Shown in pieces: positions 21,745 to 33,205 of a DNA stretch of 64,000 nucleotides; position 1 is the stretch's first letter; each line of letters begins with the position of its first letter. The notes beneath the pieces were generated by a model. It was not told the DNA's origin, made no database searches, and saw only the letters and a program-made list of their open reading frames with translations. The position numbers and the translations under genes are program-made. Origin of the DNA: Bacillus sp. FJAT-22090 (GTDB lineage Bacteria; Bacillota; Bacilli; Bacillales_A; Planococcaceae); the NCBI RefSeq assembly GCF_001278755.1, contig NZ_CP012601.1, positions 2,790,001-2,854,000 on the forward strand, given 5' to 3'.

Positions 21745-21774
21745 AGGCTCTGTTAAACGATACTATTGATTTTT

Positions 21775-21900
21775 CGTTACAGCAGGACGCATGCAATCCG
21801 CTGGCTGTCCCGTGTGCTTCCACATCGAAAGCACTCCTGCGAGGTCTTGGTCTCATCAGGACAAGCCCGCTGGATTCGCAGCCATTCACTACATCCGTCT
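21775..21900. repeat. GC-richer structured intergenic element
   Basis: A stretch visibly richer in G and C than its neighbours with nested self-complementarity: GCAGGA/TCCTGC, GTGCTT/AAGCAC and TGTCC/GGACA pairs, and CCGCTGG present twice in direct orientation. It has no ORF. It looks like a small dispersed Bacillales intergenic repeat, but no second copy is in this window. Confidence 0.5.
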
Positions 21901-21944
21901 AAATGATAAAAAAAATCTACAACAATATATAACATAACTAAAAT

Positions 21945-21984
21945 AAAAAGAAATGAAGGGCTGCTTGGCTCTTCACTTCTTTTT
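21945..21984. terminator. Bidirectional terminator between actP and gltS
   Basis: 17-bp arms AAAAAGAAATGAAGGGC (21945-21961) and GCTCTTCACTTCTTTTT (21968-21984) with two mismatches and T tracts in both directions, 5 bp from the gltS stop. Confidence 0.85.
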
Positions 21985-21988
21985 ATTT

Positions 21989-23179
21989 TTACTGAAATAA
22001 ATTAATAGTCGTTATAATGATTGGCATTGCAAAAACGTCAATTAGGAATGCACCTACAATCGGAACAACCAAATATGCTTTTTTAGAAGGACCAAACCTT
22101 TCCGTTACTGCTGCCATATTTGCCATTGCATTTGGTGTTGCACCAAGTCCATGTCCAGTAAAACCAGCTACCATTACAGCTGCATCGTAATTCTTTCCCA
22201 ATAAGCGAAACAATACAAATATACCAAAAAGGACGATGAAAACAACTTGTACAAAAACAATAGCTAAAATAGGTAAAGCTAAATCAGCTACCTCCCATAG
22301 TTTGATGCTCATCAAAGCCATCGAAAGAAAAATACCTAATGTAATATCTCCTACTAAACCTATGCTTTGCATATCTACTATTTTAGGATTAACTTTGTCT
22401 ACTATATTTCTTACTATTACTGCCACAAACATTGCACCCACATATCCTGGTAGCACAAATCCCGTTGCCGAAGAGAACAAGCTACCTAAATAAGTTCCTA
22501 ATGCCATACAGAAAGTGATGAGGAATAATTGTGTAAAAAATGTATTCGTTTGTATCGGCTTGTTACTTTCCAATGGGTTTACTTCCTCTACTTCCTCGCG
22601 TTCCGTAGATTTCAAATCATACTTAGAAACGAGGAACTTCACTACAGGTCCTCCTACCAGCCCTCCAGCAACTAGCCCAAATGTTGCTGCAGCTACCCCG
22701 ATAGATAACGCTGAGTTTATTCCGAGATCCTCCACAGTTTGGCCAAACGCCGTAGCCGCTCCATGACCACCTTCCATTGAAACTGCTCCTGCCATCATAC
22801 CGATAAGCGGATGAATATCAAATAAATAGGCCATCGAAACTCCAATTGTATTTTGGGCAAGGGCTAAAAAACCACATGCCAGCCAATAAATAACGAGTAA
22901 TTTCCCTCCTAATTTTACTAGCTTAAAACTTGCACCTAGCCCAACTGTTGTGAAAAATGTGAGCATAAATATTCCTTGTAATGATGTATCCAAAGTAATT
23001 TCTAATAATCCTAGAGCTTTCGCTATGGTTGCAACTAAAGCAAAAAGTAATCCTCCTACTACCGGAGCAGGTATACAAAACTTATTTAAGAAACCAATAT
23101 TTTTTACTAAAAACGTACCTAGCACTAATAGAGCTATGGCAAGAAAGATAGTAGTAACTTGATCTAATGCTAGTGTCAT
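21989..23179 (-). CDS. gltS: Sodium/glutamate symporter GltS
   Basis: 396 aa, about ten membrane helices, typical GltS length. It has the GltS pattern C-I-P-A-P-V-V-G-G-L near residue 35, G-M-M-A-G-A-V-S-M-E-G-G-H-G near 125 and G-F-T-G-H-G-L-G-A-T-P-N-A near 345, the two inverted re-entrant-loop regions. Start overlaps the hutG stop by ATGA, so glutamate transport is coupled to a glutamate-releasing enzyme. Export or import cannot be decided from sequence. Confidence 0.93.
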   Translation of the reverse strand: MTLALDQVTTIFLAIALLVLGTFLVKNIGFLNKFCIPAPVVGGLLFALVATIAKALGLLEITLDTSLQGIFMLTFFTTVGLGASFKLVKLGGKLLVIYWLACGFLALAQNTIGVSMAYLFDIHPLIGMMAGAVSMEGGHGAATAFGQTVEDLGINSALSIGVAAATFGLVAGGLVGGPVVKFLVSKYDLKSTEREEVEEVNPLESNKPIQTNTFFTQLFLITFCMALGTYLGSLFSSATGFVLPGYVGAMFVAVIVRNIVDKVNPKIVDMQSIGLVGDITLGIFLSMALMSIKLWEVADLALPILAIVFVQVVFIVLFGIFVLFRLLGKNYDAAVMVAGFTGHGLGATPNAMANMAAVTERFGPSKKAYLVVPIVGAFLIDVFAMPIIITTINLFQ

Positions 23180-24138
23180 TTAATATCCCTCCTCAGAAAA
23201 CTTGTGATTGCTTCATTTACTAAATACGCACCTAGTTTTACAGTACGGTTATGTTCGTCTAAAAGAGGATTTACCTCTGAAATATCAAAGGATAATGTTT
23301 TTTTATGTGCTGTTACACTCCTTATAATAGATCGCACAATACTTGGATCTAAACCAAATGGTGATGGAGCACTTACACCTGGGGCAAAAGCAGCGTTCAG
23401 AACGTCTGTGCACAAAGTAAGAATGATATAATCATTTTCTTCTATAAAATTGTTTAGTGTTTCATTTACTTTGTCTATTTGACTTACATTCATACTTTCC
23501 TCAAGGATATATTTAACGTTCAATTCATCAGCTCGATCAAAAAGCTCCTGCGTATTCCCAAAACGCTGAATGCCAACAACACAATAACAACTGTTTGAAT
23601 CTTGGTCTAATATTTGCTTAAACATAGTACCGGAAGAGGATTGCTCATCATATGATCTTAAATCAAAGTGAGCATCGATATTTATAATTCCTAGCTTTGC
23701 CTGTGAGCCAATATAATTACGTGCACCGAGATAATGTCCGTAAGCGGTTTCATGTCCGCCACCTAAAATAATTGGAGTCATTTGTTTGTTTAAAACTTTT
23801 GTAATTGTTTCTCCAAGTTGTCGTTGCGCTTCTTCTAAGTTTTCTTCTATACACGTAACTGACCCGATATCCGCGAGTTGCTTGTGTGGTGGAAATAACC
23901 ATGGTAAGTTTGCTAGTTCAGATCGAAGAGCGTCTGGAGCTTTTGCTGCACCAACTTTACCTTTATTTCGTCTAACCCCTTCCTCACTTTCAAATCCGAT
24001 AATGACACAAGTTTCTTTGTTAGGTTTATAATCATCCATCTGAGGTAACTCTATGATTTGGTGATATCGAAAGCTAGATCTATTTACACGATGATCGGTC
24101 CGACCAGACCAAATACCATCCTTCATTTTATTTAACAT
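23176..24138 (-). CDS. hutG: Formimidoylglutamase (HutG), ureohydrolase family
   Basis: Hydrolyses N-formimidoyl-L-glutamate to glutamate and formamide, the last step of histidine degradation. 320 aa, with manganese ligand motifs G-G-G-H-E (near 134), D-A-H-F-D (near 162) and S-F-D-I-S-E-V-N-P near the C-terminus. The last has Ile-Ser-Glu-Val where arginases have D-x-D-x-x-D-P, a HutG-like variation. The other hut genes (H, U, I) are not in the window, so agmatinase-like activity is a weaker alternative. Start ATG 24138 has GAAGGG 9 nt upstream. Divergent from a LysR regulator. Confidence 0.85.
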   Translation of the reverse strand: MLNKMKDGIWSGRTDHRVNRSSFRYHQIIELPQMDDYKPNKETCVIIGFESEEGVRRNKGKVGAAKAPDALRSELANLPWLFPPHKQLADIGSVTCIEENLEEAQRQLGETITKVLNKQMTPIILGGGHETAYGHYLGARNYIGSQAKLGIINIDAHFDLRSYDEQSSSGTMFKQILDQDSNSCYCVVGIQRFGNTQELFDRADELNVKYILEESMNVSQIDKVNETLNNFIEENDYIILTLCTDVLNAAFAPGVSAPSPFGLDPSIVRSIIRSVTAHKKTLSFDISEVNPLLDEHNRTVKLGAYLVNEAITSFLRRDIK

Positions 24139-24230
24139 GCTGCACGTCCCTTCTTAATTCGTTCTATTTATATTTTCTAAATTATATAAGAACTCATTTA
24201 TTATTTCTAATATATAATTGTTATAAATCT

Positions 24231-24245
24231 ATAGCTTTAAACTAT
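24231..24245. promoter_or_regulatory. LysR-type operator
   Basis: ATAG-CTTTAAA-CTAT, a dyad with the T-N11-A layout bound by LysR regulators, 22 bp before the lysR gene in the hutG/lysR divergent region. Confidence 0.5.
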
Positions 24246-24266
24246 ATATGTACGGAGGAAATCCAA

Positions 24267-25148
24267 ATGGACTTAAAACAACTCTCTTATTTTGTAACAA
24301 TAGTAGATCAAATGAGCTTTTCCAAAGCTGCTCAAATACTTCATATTTCACAACCTTCTCTAAGTAATGCAATTAAAAGCTTGGAAGGTGAATTAGGATT
24401 TCAAATACTTGAACGGAATACTAGGAATATAGGAATAACTGAAGCAGGACATATTTTATATAAAAGGGCCGTGCATCTTTTATCGGAGATGGAAATTGCA
24501 AAAAAAGAAATGGGAGAAGTCAAACTTATTGGGAGTGGGGAACTTCAAATAGGAATGATAGAATCCGCAAAACATTGGATACCAAAAGTGATTCGACCAT
24601 ATATAAAAGAGTTTCCAGATGTTCGGATTAAATTAACGGAAGTATTAAGTGGAGCTGATGTAAAAAGCTCATTACGAAACTATGAAACACACCTTATTAT
24701 TACCAATCAATTTATCGAGGAAGACGATATTACAACCATACCTTTATATCACGAAAAGCTTGTTTTATTACTTCATACTAACCACCCACTTGCAAAGCTT
24801 GAATATATAGAGCTAAAAGACTTGGTAGGAGAACCTTTTATAATAAGTAGCGAGGGTTTTCAAACTAGGCATGATGTTTTAAATTTCTTTAAAACTGAAA
24901 ATATTATACCTACCATAAAATATGAGATTGAACGTTTTGAAACAGCATTAATTTTAGTTCGTGAAAACTTAGGCATTACACTAATACCTGAAAACTATTT
25001 GCAAGGACCTTATGATTACTCAATAGTTAAAAGAACCATTGATTCTATAGAAATAGATCGGACCGTTTATTTGACGTATTTAAAAAATCGTTATGTATCC
25101 CCCGCTATACACGATTTTATTAACCGAACTAACTCTTATTTTAATTAG
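24267..25148 (+). CDS. LysR-family transcriptional regulator
   Basis: 293 aa. N-terminal winged HTH (residues 1-60: M-D-L-K-Q-L-S-Y-F-V-T-I-V-D ... S-F-S-K-A-A-Q-I-L-H-I-S-Q-P-S-L-S) and a substrate-binding effector domain (about 90-290). Transcribed divergently from hutG-gltS, so it probably controls that operon; effector could be histidine, formiminoglutamate or glutamate (inference). Good GGAGG before ATG 24267. Confidence 0.9.
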   Translation: MDLKQLSYFVTIVDQMSFSKAAQILHISQPSLSNAIKSLEGELGFQILERNTRNIGITEAGHILYKRAVHLLSEMEIAKKEMGEVKLIGSGELQIGMIESAKHWIPKVIRPYIKEFPDVRIKLTEVLSGADVKSSLRNYETHLIITNQFIEEDDITTIPLYHEKLVLLLHTNHPLAKLEYIELKDLVGEPFIISSEGFQTRHDVLNFFKTENIIPTIKYEIERFETALILVRENLGITLIPENYLQGPYDYSIVKRTIDSIEIDRTVYLTYLKNRYVSPAIHDFINRTNSYFN

Positions 25149-25275
25149 ATTTATTAGTCTTAATTGTTATTACTTCCACTTAAACTGCTATGTATGAGTG
25201 ACTCATCCTTTACGGCAAGCACACATCCGTATTTCTAAACTATGGTTTTGAAACACATTCTAAGTTTAAGTATTA

Positions 25276-25306
25276 AAAAACCGGTCCCAAAAAGGAACCG
25301 GTTTTT
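25276..25306. terminator. Bidirectional terminator
   Basis: Stem AAAAACCGGTCCC (25276-25288) / GGAACCGGTTTTT (25294-25306), one G-U pair, with T runs in both directions, between lysR and the MFS gene. Confidence 0.9.
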
Positions 25307-25317
25307 ATAATGGAAAT

Positions 25318-26625
25318 TTAATTAGCTTGGGCTTCTTTTAGCTTTTCTAACTTTCTTTCTGAAGCTAATTTTAATGACATTAATGTTACTCCTCCTATTG
25401 CAAGCAGCCCTGCAATAATAAACATACCTGAAGTAAACGCTACAGCTCCTAGAATCATTGGACCAACAAATCCTCCTAAAGCTGCAAATGAATTAACTAA
25501 AGCAATTCCAACAGGTGCGGTAGATTCTGTAAAGAAGAAAGTTAAGTATGCAAAGAAACAACCAGTAAATCCATATAGCCCAGCAGAAGTTATGGCTAAC
25601 ATAAGGACCATCATAAATACACTATTGGAAAATCCGCAACCTATAAATCCTATGATTGAAATAAGGAAACATACAAGTAAATGTGATTTATGTGCATTCG
25701 TTCTATCAGCACTCCAACCAACAAATAGGATAGCAGGTATACCGACAACAGCAGGAATCATCGCCAACCAACCTATTTCTAAGTTAGTAGTCGCTGTTGC
25801 AGATAGAGATTTAATAATAGTTGGCATCCAGAAAGACAATCCATATATTCCTGTATATGCTGCGAAATAAAGTAATGACAGCTTCCAAACTTTTGAGTCT
25901 TTTAACATTTCTCGTTTTGAAACTTTGTTTACCATTAAGCTTTGTTGTCTTTCAGACTCTAGTTCTCCTTCTAACCAATCCTTTTCTTCTTGAGACAACC
26001 ATTTAGCATTTGCTGGTCTGTTTGTTAAATAGAATATAACAACGAATCCTAGAATAACTGCTGGAATACCTTCTAAAATAAACATCCATCTCCACCCAGA
26101 CATAGATAGCCAAGAGATATTATCTAGAATCCATGTCGATACAGGTGCTCCAATGAGTCCCCCAACTGGTAAAGCGAGTAATAATACGGCCGTTGCTTTT
26201 CCTCTTTCACGGGCTCTAAACCAATAAGTTAAATACAATATAATACCTGGGAAGAACCCAGCTTCAGCAACACCTAATAAAAAACGAAGAATGTACAAAT
26301 GAGTTGTTGTTTGTGCAAAACCAGTTAAGACAACTATAATACCCCATGAAAACATAATACGTGCAATCCAAACCTTTGCGCCAATTTTGTGCATAATCAT
26401 ATTACTTGGAACTTCAAAGAAGAAATAACCAATAAAGAAAATACCTGAAAGAAGTCCGAAAACTTCCGCTGTTAATGCTAATTCCGCGTTCATTTGCAAC
26501 GCTGCATAACCTAAATTCACTCGATCTAAGTAAGCTACAATATACAAAACTAATATAAATGGTAAAATGCGAAGCATTGTTTTATTTATCGTTCTTTTTT
26601 CAAGTGCATTAACTGTTTGAGTCAT
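25318..26625 (-). CDS. MFS transporter, anion:cation symporter (ACS) family
   Basis: 435 aa, 12 membrane helices. Features of the ACS family: Y-L-D-R-V-N-L-G-Y-A-A in helix 1 (about 28-38), R-F-L-L-G-V-A-E-A-G-F-F-P-G (about 114-127) and Y-W-F-R-A-R-E-R-G-K-A-T-A (about 133-145). Such carriers move organic acids. Position 56 bp after the thiolase gene in a 3-hydroxybutyrate/acetoacetate operon suggests a short hydroxy- or keto-acid substrate (inference). Confidence 0.85.
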   Translation of the reverse strand: MTQTVNALEKRTINKTMLRILPFILVLYIVAYLDRVNLGYAALQMNAELALTAEVFGLLSGIFFIGYFFFEVPSNMIMHKIGAKVWIARIMFSWGIIVVLTGFAQTTTHLYILRFLLGVAEAGFFPGIILYLTYWFRARERGKATAVLLLALPVGGLIGAPVSTWILDNISWLSMSGWRWMFILEGIPAVILGFVVIFYLTNRPANAKWLSQEEKDWLEGELESERQQSLMVNKVSKREMLKDSKVWKLSLLYFAAYTGIYGLSFWMPTIIKSLSATATTNLEIGWLAMIPAVVGIPAILFVGWSADRTNAHKSHLLVCFLISIIGFIGCGFSNSVFMMVLMLAITSAGLYGFTGCFFAYLTFFFTESTAPVGIALVNSFAALGGFVGPMILGAVAFTSGMFIIAGLLAIGGVTLMSLKLASERKLEKLKEAQAN

Positions 26626-26681
26626 TTTTTTCTCCCCTTTGTGTGATCTTTTACTACATTCTCAATCCGCGTCGCAGCTTT

Positions 26682-27860
26682 TTAGTTCACGTTTTCCAAA
26701 ATCATCGCAATACCTTGTCCCCCACCAATGCAAAGCGAAGCTAGCCCATAACGGACATTTCTTTTCTTCATTTCAATTGCTAATGAATAAGTAATTCTCG
26801 TACCACTAGCACCTACAGGATGTCCTAGTGCAACTGCGCCACCATTCACGTTTACTTTTGATGTATCCAAGCCTAGTTCTTTAATCACCGCTAATGATTG
26901 TGCAGCAAATGCCTCATTTAATTCAAACAATCCTATATCATCCAAAGTTAAACCAGCTTTTTCTAAGGCTTTTTTGCTTGCTGGAACAGGACCAATACCC
27001 ATAATTTTTGGATCAACACCTGCCACTCCCCAAGAAACAATCTTTGCTAATGGCTTTAAGTTATGCTCTTTTACATATTGCTCTGAAGCAAGTATTACAG
27101 CTGCAGCTCCATCATTAATTCCACTTGCATTCCCAGGAGTTACCGTGCCATCCTTCTTAAATGCTGGCTTTAACTTCGCCAATCCATCTATTGTTGCACC
27201 TTCTCGAATATGCTCATCGCTATCAAATGTTACTTCTCCTTTTTTACCTTTTATCGTAATCGACACTATTTCTTCCGCGAAGCGGCCACTATCTCTCGCT
27301 TGTATTGCTCTCTCCTGGGATTGAACTGCAAACGCATCTTGTTCTTCACGGGAAATATCATATTGTACTGCTAAGTTTTCAGCTGTCATCCCCATCCCGC
27401 AACCAACATATTTATCTGTTAAAGTATCCCAAAGCATATCTTCTACTAACGGCGCTTTGTTAGGCGAGCCGAATCGGGTTCCCCTTAATACATGCGGAGC
27501 TAAGCTCATGCTTTCAGTTCCTCCAGCAACTATTACATTTGCATCCCCGACCGCAATTGCCTGTGCTCCTGAGACAATGGATTGTAAGCTCGATCCACAA
27601 AGTCTATTTAGTGTTAGTGCACTAGAGGATTCTTTCATTCCGCTTTTTAGTCCAATATGCCTTGCTAGGTAAGCAGAGCTACCACTTGTTTGAATAATAT
27701 TTCCGAAGATGATTTCATCTATATCAGAAGCTGGTATTCCACTTCTTTTAATAGCTTCTCCTGTAGCTGCTACACCTAAATCGATATCACTCACATCTTT
27801 TAGTGAACCTCCAAAAGTTCCAAAAGCTGTTCTTGCACCATCAATAATATAAGTTGTCAT
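26682..27860 (-). CDS. Acetyl-CoA acetyltransferase (thiolase)
   Basis: Converts acetoacetyl-CoA plus CoA to two acetyl-CoA. 392 aa, the usual thiolase length. Acylation Cys88 in N-R-L-C-G-S-S-L-Q, N-E-A-F-A-A-Q near 316, G-G-A-V-A-L-G-H-P-V-G-A-S-G (His near 348) and the C-terminal Cys in C-I-G-G-G-Q-G are visible. It is the last enzyme of the ketone-body route encoded here, 19 bp after the broken dehydrogenase gene. Confidence 0.93.
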   Translation of the reverse strand: MTTYIIDGARTAFGTFGGSLKDVSDIDLGVAATGEAIKRSGIPASDIDEIIFGNIIQTSGSSAYLARHIGLKSGMKESSSALTLNRLCGSSLQSIVSGAQAIAVGDANVIVAGGTESMSLAPHVLRGTRFGSPNKAPLVEDMLWDTLTDKYVGCGMGMTAENLAVQYDISREEQDAFAVQSQERAIQARDSGRFAEEIVSITIKGKKGEVTFDSDEHIREGATIDGLAKLKPAFKKDGTVTPGNASGINDGAAAVILASEQYVKEHNLKPLAKIVSWGVAGVDPKIMGIGPVPASKKALEKAGLTLDDIGLFELNEAFAAQSLAVIKELGLDTSKVNVNGGAVALGHPVGASGTRITYSLAIEMKKRNVRYGLASLCIGGGQGIAMILENVN

Positions 27861-27879
27861 TTAATATCCCCCTTTGTCT

Positions 27880-28634
27880 TTACATTCCACCTGAAACGCT
27901 TAAATGTTCACCAGTAATTCCACTTGCCTCATTTGCTGCAAGATACGCCACACCTGAAGCAACCTCTTCAGGGGAGATAAAGCGTTTCATCGCTTGTCTT
28001 GGATACATAATAGTCTCTAATGCTTCTTGTTCTGTTTTTCCAACACTTTTTAAATCGTTTAACTGTCTTTCAAGTAAAGGAGTAAGTACTGGACCTGGTA
28101 ATATGGAGTTAGCGGTAATATTAAATGGTGCACCTTCTAATGCTGTCACACTTGTTACGCCTATCACACCATGTTTTGCTGCAACATATGCTACTTTTTC
28201 AGGACTCGCCAACCTTCCATGAATAGAGGATATATTGACAATCCGTCAAATTGATTTTTCTTCATGTAAGGAAAAACATGTTTCGTCATTAAAAATACCC
28301 CGGTTAACATAACGTTGATAAGTAGATTCCACTTATCTAACGGAAACTCCTCAATTGCTGATCTATACTGTAGTCCAGCATTATTTATTAGAACATCGAC
28401 GGTGCCTTTTTCCTCTACAATTGCTTGTATAACAGCTTGAACGTTTTCTTCATTTGTTACATCTAGTGCTATCCCTTTCGTGTTTTCTCCTAATTCTTTC
28501 GCTACTTTTTCTGCCGCTTCTTGATTTAGATCGGCAACGTATACGAAGTCATTCTGAGTAACAAATTTTTGGGCTATGGCATATCCCATTCCCCCGGCAC
28601 CACCCGTCACGATAACTACTCGTTGCTTACTCAT
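27880..28634 (-). pseudogene. 3-hydroxybutyrate dehydrogenase (SDR family), disrupted by a frameshift
   Basis: Two overlapping open frames make one ~250-aa short-chain dehydrogenase. The N-terminal frame (28191-28634) carries T-G-G-A-G-G-M-G and N-N-A-G. The C-terminal frame (27880-28212) carries Y-V-A-A-K (catalytic Tyr and Lys) and the P-G-P-V-L-T-P segment. At 28246-28248 the minus strand reads TTTGACGG where TTTGGACGG would give Phe-Gly-Arg and continue into I-V-N-I-S-S-I-H-G in the second frame, so one G is missing. Without it the first frame ends in 17 unrelated residues. Either a real inactivation or an assembly error. The intact enzyme would oxidise (R)-3-hydroxybutyrate to acetoacetate. 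Confidence 0.88.
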
Positions 28635-29593
28635 AAGTTGACCTCCTCTTTTGCCTTCAACTCGGATTGGGTGTTAAGAAGATGTTTAATCAGTTGAGAG
28701 TCCCTTTCTTTTACATATCCATCAAAACTTTTACCAGGATATTCATAAAATCCTTTACCTGCTTTAACACCAATCGCTCCTGATTCAACCCTTTCCTCAA
28801 TTGCTTTAAACTCTCTAACATTCGATTCAATTTTCGATTGAAGACCATCTAACACAGCCTTCCAAATGTCCAATCCTCCAAAGTCTAATATCTTCAACAG
28901 ACCGCTAGAGGAAAAACGGAACCCGGGTCCTTGGAAGATTGCTATATCTAAATCTTCTTCACTTACAACCCCATCTTCAATTAAAGCCAGTGCCTCTCTT
29001 ACAATAGCTACTTGGATTCTATTTGCTACAAGGCCATCGATCTCTTTTTTCACTTCAATCGTCACCTTATTGTTTGATTCTAAAAAATCTTTTACTTCAT
29101 TAAACACATGATCACTTGTCTCATTTGACCTTAGAAGTTCCACAAGCGGAACAATATGTGCAGGGTTGAAGAAATGAGTCAATATTGTTCTATCCTTATG
29201 TTTCTTAACGTCAACCGTAATGTCTGAAAGTTTTAAACTTGACGTATTGGATGCTAAAATTGTATGTTCTGCGCAAATGTCATCTAATTGTTTAAAAAGC
29301 TTTTGTTTCAAAGTTAAATTTTCTGATACACTTTCTATTATTAAATCGACATCCGCTAAATCATTAATGTTCGTTGTAAAAGAAATATGAGATAACACTT
29401 CCTGATCGCTGTATCTAATGTCATATCCTTCCGCACGAAATAAATCTAAGTAAATGTGAAATTTCCCCTTTGCTGTTTCAAGCATTTCTTCAGAAATATC
29501 CGTTAGCGTTGTTTGCACTCCATTAATAGCAAATTGAAAAGCAATTCCAAACCCCATCGTTCCAGCACCAATAACTCCTAATTGATTTATCAA
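28631..29593 (-). CDS. 3-hydroxyacyl-CoA dehydrogenase family protein
   Basis: 320 aa. NAD-binding Rossmann motif G-V-I-G-A-G-T-M-G-F-G (residues 6-16), S-x-T-S-S-L region (A-S-N-T-S-S-L-K-L, about 113-121), catalytic His in T-H-F-F-N-P-A (about 138-144) and the C-terminal helical domain with G-K-G-F-Y-E-Y-P. Likely oxidises (S)-3-hydroxybutyryl-CoA to acetoacetyl-CoA; L-carnitine dehydrogenase belongs to the same family and is an alternative. Stop overlaps the start of the next gene by ATGA. Confidence 0.85.
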   Translation of the reverse strand: MINQLGVIGAGTMGFGIAFQFAINGVQTTLTDISEEMLETAKGKFHIYLDLFRAEGYDIRYSDQEVLSHISFTTNINDLADVDLIIESVSENLTLKQKLFKQLDDICAEHTILASNTSSLKLSDITVDVKKHKDRTILTHFFNPAHIVPLVELLRSNETSDHVFNEVKDFLESNNKVTIEVKKEIDGLVANRIQVAIVREALALIEDGVVSEEDLDIAIFQGPGFRFSSSGLLKILDFGGLDIWKAVLDGLQSKIESNVREFKAIEERVESGAIGVKAGKGFYEYPGKSFDGYVKERDSQLIKHLLNTQSELKAKEEVNL

Positions 29594-29628
29594 CCGTATA
29601 TCTCCCTTATTGAATATTTTGCTGACTA

Positions 29629-30288
29629 TTAAATCTCTATTGGACTATTTAAATACTCTAATGGAATACCTACCTTTTCACTCAATTGTTCTAAAGACAT
29701 ATCTCCCAATAACTCTACTACTCTAGGACCTTCTACCGTAAATTTAATAACAGCATATTCACATACAAACAAATCTACTTTTCGAATTCCACTTGTTTTA
29801 TACGTAAGTTCCTTCACTAATTTTGAAGTTCCATCCTTTGCAAACAATGTAGCTGCTACTATTACCTTTTTGGCACCTGTCACTAAATCCATTGCTCCCC
29901 CAACACCTAAAATGGGTTGGTTTGGTACTGCCCAGTTAGCAATTTCTCCATGGACATCCACTTGGAGAATACCAAGTACCGCAACATCCACATGACCACC
30001 TCTAATTAATGCAAATGAATCTGCACTACTGAAAAAAGAGGCACTTTTTAAATATGTTACGGGCTCTTTTCCAGCATTAATCAAATCAATGTCCAAATTA
30101 TCATCTGTTGCAGGTGGTCCCATTCCTAATAATCCATTTTCCGTTTGTAAAAATACCTCTTTATCTTCTAAATACTCGGATACGATTGTAGGAATACCAA
30201 TTCCTAAATTCACGATTTGACCATCTTCTAGCTCTTCCGCAATTCTCTTTGCAATGATATGTTTTTTATCTAGACTCAACATACTCAC
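29629..30288 (-). CDS. scoB: 3-oxoacid/acetoacetate CoA-transferase subunit B
   Basis: 219 aa. Catalytic Glu50 in the family motif Q-T-E-N-G-L-L-G-M-G-P, preceded by N-L-G-I-G-I-P (27-33), and G-G-A-M-D-L-V-T-G-A-K near 129. With subunit A it transfers CoA from succinyl- or acetyl-CoA to acetoacetate. Overlaps the scoA end by 23 nt, as common for this pair. YodR is a related B. subtilis protein. Confidence 0.93.
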   Translation of the reverse strand: MSMLSLDKKHIIAKRIAEELEDGQIVNLGIGIPTIVSEYLEDKEVFLQTENGLLGMGPPATDDNLDIDLINAGKEPVTYLKSASFFSSADSFALIRGGHVDVAVLGILQVDVHGEIANWAVPNQPILGVGGAMDLVTGAKKVIVAATLFAKDGTSKLVKELTYKTSGIRKVDLFVCEYAVIKFTVEGPRVVELLGDMSLEQLSEKVGIPLEYLNSPIEI

Positions 30289-30952
30289 TCCCTACTTTGG
30301 AATATTTACTTTGGATGACATAATCGACATAAGCATGAGGGGTCACAATGTATTCAGGATCCAATTCCCCCACTTCTACAATTTCATCAACTTCTGCAAT
30401 GACAATCTTACCAGCAGTTGCCATCATCGGATTAAAGTTTCTTGCAGTGGTGTAATATACTAAGTTTCCAAGTCGATCTGCTTTTGCTGCTTTAATAATG
30501 GCAACATCGCCTTTAATAGCCTTCTCAAAAATATATCTTTCCCCATCAATTACACGTTCCTCTTTACCTTCACTTAATTCAGTTCCTACTGCCGTTTTTG
30601 TGTAGAACCCCCCGATGCCGGCCCCGCCACAACGAATTGCCTCAGCAAGTGTACCTTGTGGTAATAATTCAATATCTAATTCACCTTTAGACCAAGCAAT
30701 TACTGCTTCTCTATTAATAGAAAAAAAGGAACCAATTGCTTTTTTTATCTTTCCTTGCATGAACAACTTATGAAGTCCTTGCCCCAAGTCTCCTAAATTA
30801 TTACTGACAACTGTCAAATCTTTAATATCTGTTTCTAATAATTCATCGATAATCGTAAGAGGTGTTCCTGATAAACCAAATCCACCAGTTAAAATTTGAT
30901 CGCCGCTTTTAAATAACTTTCGAATTTCCTTTGAATCAATTATTTTGTTCAA
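30266..30952 (-). CDS. scoA: 3-oxoacid/acetoacetate CoA-transferase subunit A
   Basis: 228 aa. CoA-binding glycine motif G-G-F-G-L-S-G-T-P (22-30), the A-I-R-C-G-G-A-G-I-G-G-F-Y-T segment near 105-118 and R-N-F-N-P-M-M-A-T-A near 191-200. First gene of the operon scoA-scoB-hydroxyacyl-CoA dehydrogenase-HBDH-thiolase-MFS; a cre-like site lies 32-45 bp upstream and the TetR operator 133 bp upstream. Confidence 0.93.
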   Translation of the reverse strand: MNKIIDSKEIRKLFKSGDQILTGGFGLSGTPLTIIDELLETDIKDLTVVSNNLGDLGQGLHKLFMQGKIKKAIGSFFSINREAVIAWSKGELDIELLPQGTLAEAIRCGGAGIGGFYTKTAVGTELSEGKEERVIDGERYIFEKAIKGDVAIIKAAKADRLGNLVYYTTARNFNPMMATAGKIVIAEVDEIVEVGELDPEYIVTPHAYVDYVIQSKYSKVGSEYVESR

Positions 30953-30983
30953 TGTTATCCCTCCACTTTATAGTTCAACTAAT

Positions 30984-30997
30984 AGAAAGCGCTTTCT
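30984..30997. promoter_or_regulatory. cre-like CcpA site before scoA
   Basis: Perfect palindrome AGAAAGCGCTTTCT. It fits the cre core (GNAARCGNWWWC) with mismatches only at the outer T/A positions. It sits between the TetR operator and the scoA start, consistent with glucose repression of the operon (inference). Confidence 0.65.
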
Positions 30998-31084
30998 TTT
31001 TTTAGAAAACTAAAATAGAATTAAATAAGTTTTAACTGTACAAAAAATTTAATCGGATTGTTTTAGTATATAATGAGATACATA

Positions 31085-31102
31085 ATTAGACCGCAGTCTA
31101 AT
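31085..31102. promoter_or_regulatory. TetR-family operator
   Basis: ATTAGAC-CGCA-GTCTAAT, perfect 7-bp arms, in the scoA/tetR divergent region, 11 bp after a TATAAT (31069-31074) reading toward tetR. TTAGAC-GTCTAA arms are typical of TetR-type sites. Confidence 0.75.
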
Positions 31103-31149
31103 ATTAAAATATTTGTGAGTATTCTGTCAATAATAGTTGGAGGTAATTT

Positions 31150-31755
31150 ATGATTGAACGTGTAAAAAAACAGCGTAGAGGGGAAGAAACAAAGGAAAAA
31201 ATTCTAAGGGTTGCACTAAAACTTTTTGCGGAAAAAGGGTTCACCAAGGTAACAGTAGATGATATTGTGAAAAAAAGCGGAACATCTAAAGGCTCTTTTT
31301 ATCAGCATTTCCGTTCAAAATCCGATATTTTTTTAGTACGTTTTACCGAAGTGGATCATTATTATGAGGAAGTTTATAAATCCTTTCCCGACGACATGGA
31401 TCCGATGGAAAAATTGTCTATTTTCTCGCAAAAGTTAATGCGCTTTCTAGATGAAGAAATGGGAAAAGACTTGATGAAAGTAATTTATACTGCTGCATTA
31501 GAAAACAACGAGCATAAATATTTTCTAGATTCAAATCGTTCACTCTTTAAAATCATCCGCTCATTATTAGAAGAAGCTATTACAAAGGGAAAGCTCCATC
31601 CCGAGCTTTCCTTAGATGATGTTTCGACAATAATCACCCAATCCTATATGGGCGCAATTTATCATTGGGGTTTACAAAATACCGATCGTAGCTTAGAATC
31701 GTTCTCCATCCCAATTACTAAAGCAGTTCTTGAGGGATTAACGATGAAAAGTTAG
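31150..31755 (+). CDS. TetR/AcrR-family repressor of the ketone-body operon
   Basis: 201 aa. HTH at about residues 15-60 (E-K-I-L-R-V-A-L-K-L-F-A-E-K-G-F-T-K-V-T-V-D-D-I, split here only by notation, then S-K-G-S-F-Y-Q-H-F). The C-terminal ligand domain is helical. Divergent from scoA with an 18-bp palindromic operator between them, so it likely represses scoA and itself; inducer may be acetoacetate, 3-hydroxybutyrate or an acyl-CoA (inference). GGAGG before ATG 31150. Confidence 0.88.
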   Translation: MIERVKKQRRGEETKEKILRVALKLFAEKGFTKVTVDDIVKKSGTSKGSFYQHFRSKSDIFLVRFTEVDHYYEEVYKSFPDDMDPMEKLSIFSQKLMRFLDEEMGKDLMKVIYTAALENNEHKYFLDSNRSLFKIIRSLLEEAITKGKLHPELSLDDVSTIITQSYMGAIYHWGLQNTDRSLESFSIPITKAVLEGLTMKS

Positions 31756-31830: not shown

Positions 31831-31865
31831 GAATACAAAAAGACCGGATCCCATGGGAACCGGTC
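31831..31865 (-). terminator. Terminator of tandem RNA copy 1
   Basis: Hairpin with arms GACCGG..CCC and GGG..CCGGTC (31842-31865), then TTTTTG on the minus strand. Confidence 0.8.
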
Positions 31866-32075
31866 ATTACTATTAATAATTAGTCAGCCGCCTTTACCGT
31901 ACTTACATAAGAAAGTTTTAAACCACCACTCCTCAAAGTTGGTGTTCGCAAAAACTATCCTGCATGTCCTCATTGTCTTAAGAGAATGAAGCCTGTCATT
32001 CCAGTTTTTATATAAAACTCCCTGTTACAGCATAAAGGTTAAAACTTAATATTTATACGTGCAATGCAGCTTGTA
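31842..32075 (-). ncRNA. Putative structured small RNA, copy 1
   Basis: No ORF fits this strand. A promoter (TTGAAA 32104-32109, 17 bp, TATTAT 32081-32086) points to a start near 32074 and a terminator ends the unit near 31840, about 235-240 nt. The 5' end (32059-32072) can pair with the 3' part (31885-31902): GCAGCTT/CAGCCGC blocks, and AUUGCAC with GUACGGU. Further stems match those of copy 2. The sequence is about 90% or more alike copy 2 in the body. No known family recognised; 6S-like or raiA-like RNAs are alternatives to test. Confidence 0.65.
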
Positions 32076-32119
32076 TACATATAATAAACCTATTCTCAAC
32101 TATTTTCAACGGTAATTGC
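31886..32119. repeat. Tandem direct repeat, unit 1
   Basis: 234-bp unit highly similar to 32213-32445, offset 327 bp. It contains the promoter and nearly all of the putative RNA; the terminators differ and lie outside the repeat. Confidence 0.9.
32081..32109 (-). promoter_or_regulatory. Sigma-A promoter of RNA copy 1
   Basis: TTGAAA (32104-32109, minus), 17-bp spacer, TATTAT (32081-32086). Confidence 0.75.
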
Positions 32120-32160
32120 TACCAACACATTATGCTAGCCTTCTGAGTCCCTAAGTCAAT

Positions 32161-32194
32161 AAAACAAAAAACACCATCCGTTAAGATGGTGTTT
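32161..32194 (-). terminator. Terminator of tandem RNA copy 2
   Basis: Perfect stem AAACACCATC (32169-32178) / GATGGTGTTT (32185-32194), six-base loop, then TTTTTGTTTT on the minus strand. Confidence 0.9.
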
Positions 32195-32402
32195 GAAATG
32201 TACATTTAAGGAAGCCGCCTTTGCCGTACTTACATAAGAAAGTTTTAAACCACCACTCCTCAAAGTGGGTGTTCGCAAAAACTATCCTGCATGTCCTCAT
32301 TGTCTAAAGAGAATGAGGCCTGTCATTCCAGTTTCTATATAAAACTCCCTGTTACAGCATAAAGGTTAAAACTTAATATCCATACGTACAACGCAGCTTG
32401 TA
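32165..32402 (-). ncRNA. Putative structured small RNA, copy 2
   Basis: Promoter TTGAAA (32431-32436), 17 bp, TAGTAT (32408-32413); predicted start near 32401 and terminator at 32161-32194, about 240 nt. Long-range stems by inspection: AAGCUGC (32393-32399) with GCGGCUU (32212-32218); GUUGUAC (32386-32392) with GUACGGC (32223-32229); AAGUUUUAACC (32364-32374) with GGUUUAAAACUU (32240-32251). Internal hairpins: CCUCAUU/AAUGAGG (32295-32301 and 32312-32318) and AGUUU/AAACU. Between copies one pair changes G-C to A-U and one C-G to U-G, keeping the stems. It lies just after the YhcN-like lipoprotein gene. Confidence 0.68.
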
Positions 32403-32445
32403 TTTATATACTAAACCTATTTATTACTTTTTTCAACGGTAATGC
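32213..32445. repeat. Tandem direct repeat, unit 2
   Basis: 233-bp copy of the unit at 31886-32119. Differences are scattered single bases, with extra divergence in the promoter spacer. Confidence 0.9.
32408..32436 (-). promoter_or_regulatory. Sigma-A promoter of RNA copy 2
   Basis: TTGAAA (32431-32436, minus), 17-bp spacer, TAGTAT (32408-32413). Confidence 0.75.
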
Positions 32446-32455
32446 ATTCCAGTAA

Positions 32456-32989
32456 TTACTTTGCTTCTGGGAACACTCTGTTAATTGTATCTGTAAATCC
32501 TTCCATCAATCCCTCTACAGGCTCATTTGCTCTAATTTTATCTCCATATTCAGTTATTTCTTGAGCAAAGTCTGGGTTGGTTGACACATATACATTATCG
32601 AAGTTTCCATTTGTTGCTTTTGCTTGATCGGCAATTTTACTTTTAAGATCGTCATTTTCATTAACTCCTTCTTTTAAAAGGACCCCAACATAAGCATTGT
32701 TATTTGTCACAATAACATTGGCGCTTTCCACTTCTTCCATTTCTGCAATTTTACTCGCAACGTCATCTGCTAATTCTAGCTGTTGATCTCCATTATTTCC
32801 ATTTGTTCCGTTATCCTCATTAGTATCAGTACCTGTTTCATCGTTAGCAGTATTTGTATCTACCGTTTCGTTAGTTGTTACATCATTATTATCATTATTT
32901 GCATTATTGTCGTCATTATTAGCCGTTCCACACCCCACTAAAGAACTAATTAAAAGCAAAGTCATCGATACTTGTAATATTTTATTCAT
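32456..32989 (-). CDS. YhcN/YlaJ-family sporulation lipoprotein
   Basis: 177 aa. Lipoprotein signal with lipobox S-L-V-G-C near residue 20, an Asn/Asp/Thr-rich low-complexity linker (about 22-68), then a YhcN/YlaJ-type domain with A-D-D-V-A-S-K-I-A-E-M-E-E-V-E-S-A and V-T-N-N-N-A-Y-V-G-V. Family members are found in the spore inner membrane/cortex region. ATG 32989 is chosen since AAGGAGG precedes it; the ATG at 33007 lies upstream of that site. Its stop is 11 bp from the repeat unit. Confidence 0.85.
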   Translation of the reverse strand: MNKILQVSMTLLLISSLVGCGTANNDDNNANNDNNDVTTNETVDTNTANDETGTDTNEDNGTNGNNGDQQLELADDVASKIAEMEEVESANVIVTNNNAYVGVLLKEGVNENDDLKSKIADQAKATNGNFDNVYVSTNPDFAQEITEYGDKIRANEPVEGLMEGFTDTINRVFPEAK

Positions 32990-33205
32990 TTTTAAATCCT
33001 CCTTCATAATGTCATAACGATAGGATGAGTATTTTTAACCGAGATATTCTTAGGAGAATAAAATATTTTTATAAAGTGCTTATTTACGTTTTCGCTAATC
33101 GTCTTTTGTTATTTTTCACATTATGATTAAATGATAATATAATCTAAATCTCTTTTTTTATCCCTGAAATTACTCTAATACTTTTAAGAAAGGAGATTCA
33201 ACTAA

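Follow-up and report, generated by a model that had tools for sequence, protein, structure and literature searches.

Two closely similar RNA genes lie in tandem on the minus strand of the window (the whole stretch of 64,000 nucleotides from Bacillus sp. FJAT-22090 that was analysed). They form a direct repeat of 231 nt with 93% identity (32213-32443 and 31886-32116, spacing 327), in agreement with the repeat pair that an earlier note, made from the letters alone, had described on this strand. The two genes, copy A (32208..32402) and copy B (31881..32075), differ at 12 of 195 positions, and their bodies are separated by 132 nt. Each is preceded on the same strand by a promoter-like site (TTGAAA-N17-TAGTAT at 32408..32436 for copy A, from a consensus scan; TTGAAA-N17-TATTAT at 32081..32109 for copy B, from the scan and an alignment) and followed by a terminator-like hairpin of its own, called by a signal scan. 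The hairpin after copy A (32169..32194) runs into a T-rich tail and lies inside a spacer of 88 bases of unique sequence, which extends from copy A to the promoter region of copy B (32120..32207, minus strand), and that after copy B (31839..31868) is of the CCGG type. Such sites are not much more numerous in the region than in shuffled sequences (6 promoter-like sites against 3.2 +/- 2.0, and 2 terminator-like sites against 0.7 +/- 1.1), and taken alone their counts are weak evidence; the promoter calls are supported because the -35 and -10 positions of both copies line up with those of 18 orthologues. Thus, the separate promoters and different terminators proposed earlier were recovered as promoter-like and terminator-like signals.

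No open reading frame of at least 60 aa overlaps the unit on either strand, as had been claimed before, and a protein-coding unit was rejected on this ground. An assembly artefact is unlikely, as the copies differ at the 12 positions mentioned above and are followed by different sequences. Upstream of copy A, and outside the RNA genes, lies a gene for a YhcN/YlaJ-type sporulation lipoprotein (32456..33007, minus strand, probable start ATG at 32989; PF09580, E 7.8e-31), which bears out the neighbour named in the earlier note, and downstream of copy B there is a convergent TetR-family gene (PF00440).

When the whole window was searched with cmscan, all 4227 families of Rfam being included, both copies were assigned to 6S RNA (RF00013), at 75.1 bits for copy A and 51.8 bits for copy B against a gathering cut-off of 46.4 (E-values over the whole window 5.5e-13 and 2e-7), with model positions 1-187 aligned in full in each case. 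These E-values, together with the orthologue present in every one of 18 related genomes, place the pair beyond chance. No other family exceeded its own cut-off in the window; rnk_pseudo (25.6 bits, cut-off 55) and L20_leader (20.1 bits, cut-off 58.7) were set aside as sub-threshold matches that end in a terminator hairpin. Because both copies exceed the RF00013 cut-off over the full model, the pair belongs to a known RNA class, and a new class was rejected. The earlier note had expected a pair of paralogous, structured RNAs with a regulatory or protein-binding role, and this expectation holds; its statement that they match no known class does not, and 6S RNA was in fact among the families that it listed for an Rfam check.

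The full-length alignment brings with it the rod of closing stem, central bubble, and apical arm in both copies. The consensus fold of 20 sequences (the two copies and their 18 orthologues) is likewise rod-like, although RNAalifold predicts pairing for parts of the bubble as well. Within the genus there is little covariation: some two-sided changes exist (3 of 56 predicted pairs), but the covariation term is -1.4 in the fold of 20 sequences, so that the 6S identity rests on the Rfam model. The compensatory pairing that had been read from the two copies survived only in part. The change from C-G to U-G (column 86) keeps its pairing in copy B, and copy B does lose the outermost closing pair, but the changes from G-C to A-U and from U-A to C.A were not reproduced; column 11, with G in copy A and A in copy B, is unpaired in the consensus fold.

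From the 5' side of the 6S central bubble, the polymerase transcribes a short product, the pRNA. This side reads TATTAAGTTTTAACCTTTA in copy A (32360..32378, minus strand) and holds the predicted pRNA template; the corresponding columns 25-43 are invariant in all 20 6S-2 sequences. The predicted pRNA, AAAGGUUAAAACUU, is identical in the two tandem copies and presumably resembles that of B. subtilis 6S-2. It has GG at positions 4/5, as do other 6S pRNAs according to the available text of PMC8414754.

The genome carries three 6S matches, the third of which (G000:C1:577812-577996) is flanked by a gene for a GAD-domain class II tRNA synthetase and by a ThiF-family gene, neighbours that we read as aspS-type and tcdA/yrvM-type. 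Its 5' bubble encodes GUUCGGUCAAAACU, which is identical to the 14-mer given for the B. subtilis 6S-1 pRNA in the accessible part of PMC12005410. Owing to the aspS-type neighbour and this identity, the third gene is taken to be 6S-1. The tandem pair is distinct from it, and since 6S-1 lies elsewhere, at aspS, the pair represents the second paralogue, of the 6S-2 type, in duplicate; this label was assigned by exclusion (not at aspS), not by comparison with the B. subtilis 6S-2 sequence. Azoreductase and recQ neighbours, reported for 6S-2 of the B. subtilis group (PMC7726162, as far as its text is available), were not seen in L035 or L038, the two non-Psychrobacillus loci viewed. It was also observed that a box of the form GGNA-N5-TNCC precedes the -35 element at a distance of one base in 9 of the 20 6S-2 genes (both copies and 7 of the 18 relatives), in the window at 32438-32450 and 32111-32123; it is possibly a regulator site.

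Within the genus, 19 genomes were compared. The genome of the window has its three 6S matches, and each of the other 18 has exactly two, one of which is in every case the single orthologue of the pair (87-92% to copy B) and the other a further 6S gene. The duplication thus appears, from these sequences, only in the present genome among the 19. A wider search found a 6S match in 149 of 151 genomes, and in the 56 non-genus genomes with at least two matches, which were searched again, no two 6S genes lie less than 1 kb apart on the same contig; the closest same-strand pairs outside the genus are separated by 3.1 kb in G070 and by about 5 kb in G051. It should be noted that the wider search used stricter filters, which within the genus missed the second 6S copy in three genomes, and that draft assemblies could hide near-identical tandem copies. 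Literature searches on 6S RNA in Psychrobacillus and on duplication or copies of 6S RNA genes in Bacillales found none, and one on three 6S copies in Firmicutes gave a single entry, which concerns mycobacteria.

Three genomes of other genera of the family carry more 6S matches still or as many: six in G038 (L111-L114), four in G070 (L109), and three in G051 (L110). The similarity among the 6S-2-like copies of G070 and G051 spans promoter through terminator. By eye, and with no control, 6 of 9 viewed 6S-2-like copies start no more than 250 nt past the end of an open reading frame on the same strand. An element carrying a whole 6S gene was considered and was not supported, as most of these nine copies were seen, again by eye, between ordinary chromosomal genes.

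The flanks of the pair differ in their affinities. The sequence after copy B, terminator included, resembles that after the single 6S-2 gene of G010 (E 7e-8) and G011 (E 1e-4). For the 88-base spacer behind copy A, comparison with the other loci returned nothing similar, and the rest of its own genome gave only matches of 18-19 nt. Such a layout would fit a tandem duplication whose spacer either diverged or was newly acquired. As a separate observation, some 10 kb (window about 21750-31755) parts copy B from the symporter region that follows 6S-2 in G011; this interval holds genes for a TetR-family regulator, two CoA-transferase genes, and genes for a 3-hydroxyacyl-CoA dehydrogenase, a short-chain dehydrogenase, and a thiolase, and the frame of the short-chain dehydrogenase appears to be split (27880-28212 and 28191-28634). 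On the other side, 8 of 18 genomes have a relative of the lipoprotein a short distance upstream of 6S-2 (tblastn, E 1e-3, about 1.5 kb of flank); because it adjoins in only these 8, a role in sporulation is not implied by position.

The tree joins copy A and copy B as sisters, with moderate support (ultrafast bootstrap 88, SH-aLRT 91), on branches of 0.013 and 0.078, respectively. Both have A at column 71, where all 18 relatives have G, and T at column 175, which one of the 18 shares. A duplication within this lineage fits best, and gene conversion could also be a source of the likeness between the copies. Taken as a whole, the locus almost certainly consists of two tandem 6S RNA genes of the 6S-2 type that arose by a duplication seen in no other of the genomes of the genus.

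The two copies do not appear to have changed at the same pace. At gap-free columns in which exactly one of the 20 sequences differs, copy B has 6 singleton substitutions, copy A has 1, and any other sequence has at most 3. With 10 of 18 outgroups, a relative-rate test counts 10 changes in copy B against 2 in copy A (p 0.021), and with one more outgroup p is 0.035, the outgroups not being mutually independent; with the remaining 7 of the 18 the test is not significant (p 0.083 to 0.248), and the count of 6 against 1 alone gives p 0.125. Acceleration of copy B is likely but not certain. As copy B also has the lowest 6S score among the 39 matches in the genus, it might be a pseudogene in early decay, in which case only copy A and 6S-1 would work and the duplication would be neutral. 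This explanation is a possible one, if on balance rather improbable. Its statistical basis depends on the outgroups chosen, as just described, and copy B retains an intact template, a terminator-like hairpin, and a -10 element that is closer to the consensus than that of copy A.

The positions of the changes bear on the same question. Columns 25-67, to which the template side of the bubble belongs, contain none of the six private changes of copy B. Two of the six lie in the closing stem and keep pairing (U-G to C-G at column 15, G-C to G-U at column 184), one costs the outermost pair, two sit at columns that the consensus fold leaves unpaired, and one, at column 139, lies within the 3'-bubble hairpin. 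Taken in isolation, the closing-stem duplex is predicted at -18.0 kcal/mol in both copies, several substitutions notwithstanding. In B. subtilis 6S-1, a triple mutation of the 3'-bubble hairpin lowers affinity and leads to longer pRNAs (PMC8876501, available portion). We dropped the claim that the change at column 139 breaks this hairpin and thereby affects release because RNAfold, by way of a register shift, gives the hairpin on its own an energy of -7.4 in either copy. The minimum energy of the whole molecule is -49.4 for copy B, a value that the 18 relatives bracket (-49.2 to -55.1) and that is among the weaker of the 20, and -56.0 for copy A. Because its score is near the cut-off and its predicted energy is among the weaker ones, copy B could be decaying; from the predicted folds, we read it as still functional in form.

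It is also conceivable that the pair is an operon of the kind known from B. cereus, in which one precursor is transcribed from the first promoter and cut into two RNAs. The tandem arrangement on one strand with only 132 nt between the bodies would suit such an operon, and the B. cereus group provides a precedent (PMC7726162, in its available part). However, there is a terminator-like hairpin behind copy A and a -35/-10 pair in front of copy B, so that instead of 6S-1 and 6S-2 adjoining under one promoter, the sequence presents two promoter-like and two terminator-like sites. According to the same partly available source, the second gene of B. thuringiensis has no promoter activity and the pair there comprises 6S-1 and 6S-2, whereas the present pair consists of one paralogue twice, with 6S-1 located at aspS. 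We therefore consider the operon improbable.

A different kind of event is suggested by one of the related loci. In G013 (L094, in reverse orientation), behind a full 6S-2 gene there are a different terminator, a tyrosine-recombinase remnant next to the gene (PF00589, E 9.5e-12), other sequence to 4.4 kb in all, and a repeat of the final ~61 nt of the 6S-2 gene, after which come a CCGG-type terminator and the sodium:solute symporter gene (PF00474) that in G011 (L092) follows 6S-2. The 4.4 kb insert is absent in G011, and the far flank matches the uninterrupted G011 locus (93% over 113 nt, 81% over 2453 nt). Judged by this layout, the 6S-2 3' end of G013 looks like an integration site of a tyrosine-recombinase element. 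Genes for tRNAs and tmRNA are established integration sites of tyrosine recombinases, and a 6S-2 integration site, if true, extends this pattern to 6S RNA. A literature search on 6S RNA genes as integration or attachment sites, with most subscription papers outside its coverage, found nothing.

Repeats of the 6S-2 3' end were observed in other genomes as well: 10.2 kb downstream in G004 (L089/L101) and on another contig in G005 (L090/L125). A shorter 6S-2 piece lies 0.34 kb away in G003 (L099; 27 nt of 6S, 89 nt including the terminator), and further partial repeats of the 3' end or its terminator region occur away from the full gene in G007 (L097) and G040 (L123). Short direct repeats (GGGTTAAA-like and GTCGCAA-like) were noticed by eye, without statistics, near both gene and fragment in G004 and G005. 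Some of these repeats may be partial duplications instead. No intact integrative element was found at 6S-2 in the loci examined. In the G004 interval from gene to fragment, Pfam found an integrase in none of the 10 of 13 listed open reading frames of at least 60 aa, which include an Mrr-type restriction gene and a helix-turn-helix gene; tblastn with the G013 remnant against the 18 relatives and the present genome gave one further, weak match (G006, 23 aa, E 0.008).

That the extra copy in the window is a scar of such element traffic, with the 6S-2 3' end as the attachment site, rather than a plain tandem duplication, would accord with the G013 locus and with the sequences behind the two copies, a flank of the kind seen after 6S-2 in relatives for copy B and unique sequence for copy A, but it is very improbable, given that the G013 integrase remnant has no tblastn match in the 20.6 kb of this genome from 6S-2 onward, that no partial 6S copy besides A and B occurs in the region searched, and that copy B is complete with its promoter, which 3'-end integration alone does not explain.

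Returning to a tandem duplication of 6S-2, what might the pair do? 6S RNA acts as a mimic of an open promoter: it keeps sigma-A RNA polymerase occupied and dissociates once a pRNA has been made (PMC12005410, available text). Both copies match this class, and from class membership they can be inferred to bind RNA polymerase; both would then occupy the sigma-A enzyme and be released by the same pRNA. Two genes with separate promoters would yield more 6S-2 or place 6S-2 under two slightly different controls. In B. subtilis, 6S-2 expression peaks in mid-exponential phase, and 6S-2 is less enriched on sigma-A than 6S-1 (PMC11077062, in the part available). The pair most likely raises the dosage of 6S-2, with copy B starting to diverge: its template region is intact and its arms seemingly change faster, so it may be drifting or being tuned in affinity or release. 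A bolder proposal, to which we give little credence, is that copy B is a young paralogue heading to a different release or affinity, born at an attachment-site locus where integration reshapes a 6S gene and a spare copy keeps the regulator intact.

With this analysis, a candidate new RNA class is removed and replaced by a case of 6S RNA gene duplication. A near-identical 6S-2 pair with separate promoter-like signals, one member of which appears to evolve faster, and with relatives that have a single copy, offers a setting in which to ask why some Firmicutes keep more than one 6S RNA.

Among known systems, the ssrSA-ssrSB genes of the B. cereus group resemble the present locus in that two 6S genes adjoin on one strand; as described in the available part of PMC7726162, they are 6S-1 and 6S-2 with one promoter and one precursor, whereas here both genes are the non-aspS paralogue, each has promoter-like and terminator-like signals, and 6S-1 is at aspS. 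The several 6S-2-like copies of G038, G070, and G051, in other genera of the family, also represent more than one copy of the same paralogue, with upstream similarity for each and a shared terminator in G070 and G051, but their nearest copies are 3.1 to 21 kb apart, none within 1 kb. With 6S RNA at large (RF00013; E. coli ssrS, B. subtilis 6S-1/bsrA and 6S-2/bsrB), the pair has in common the full-length model match over ~195 nt, the closing stem, central bubble, and apical arm, and, by sequence, a predicted pRNA template in the 5' bubble; it differs in that the genome has three 6S genes, two of which are the same paralogue in tandem.
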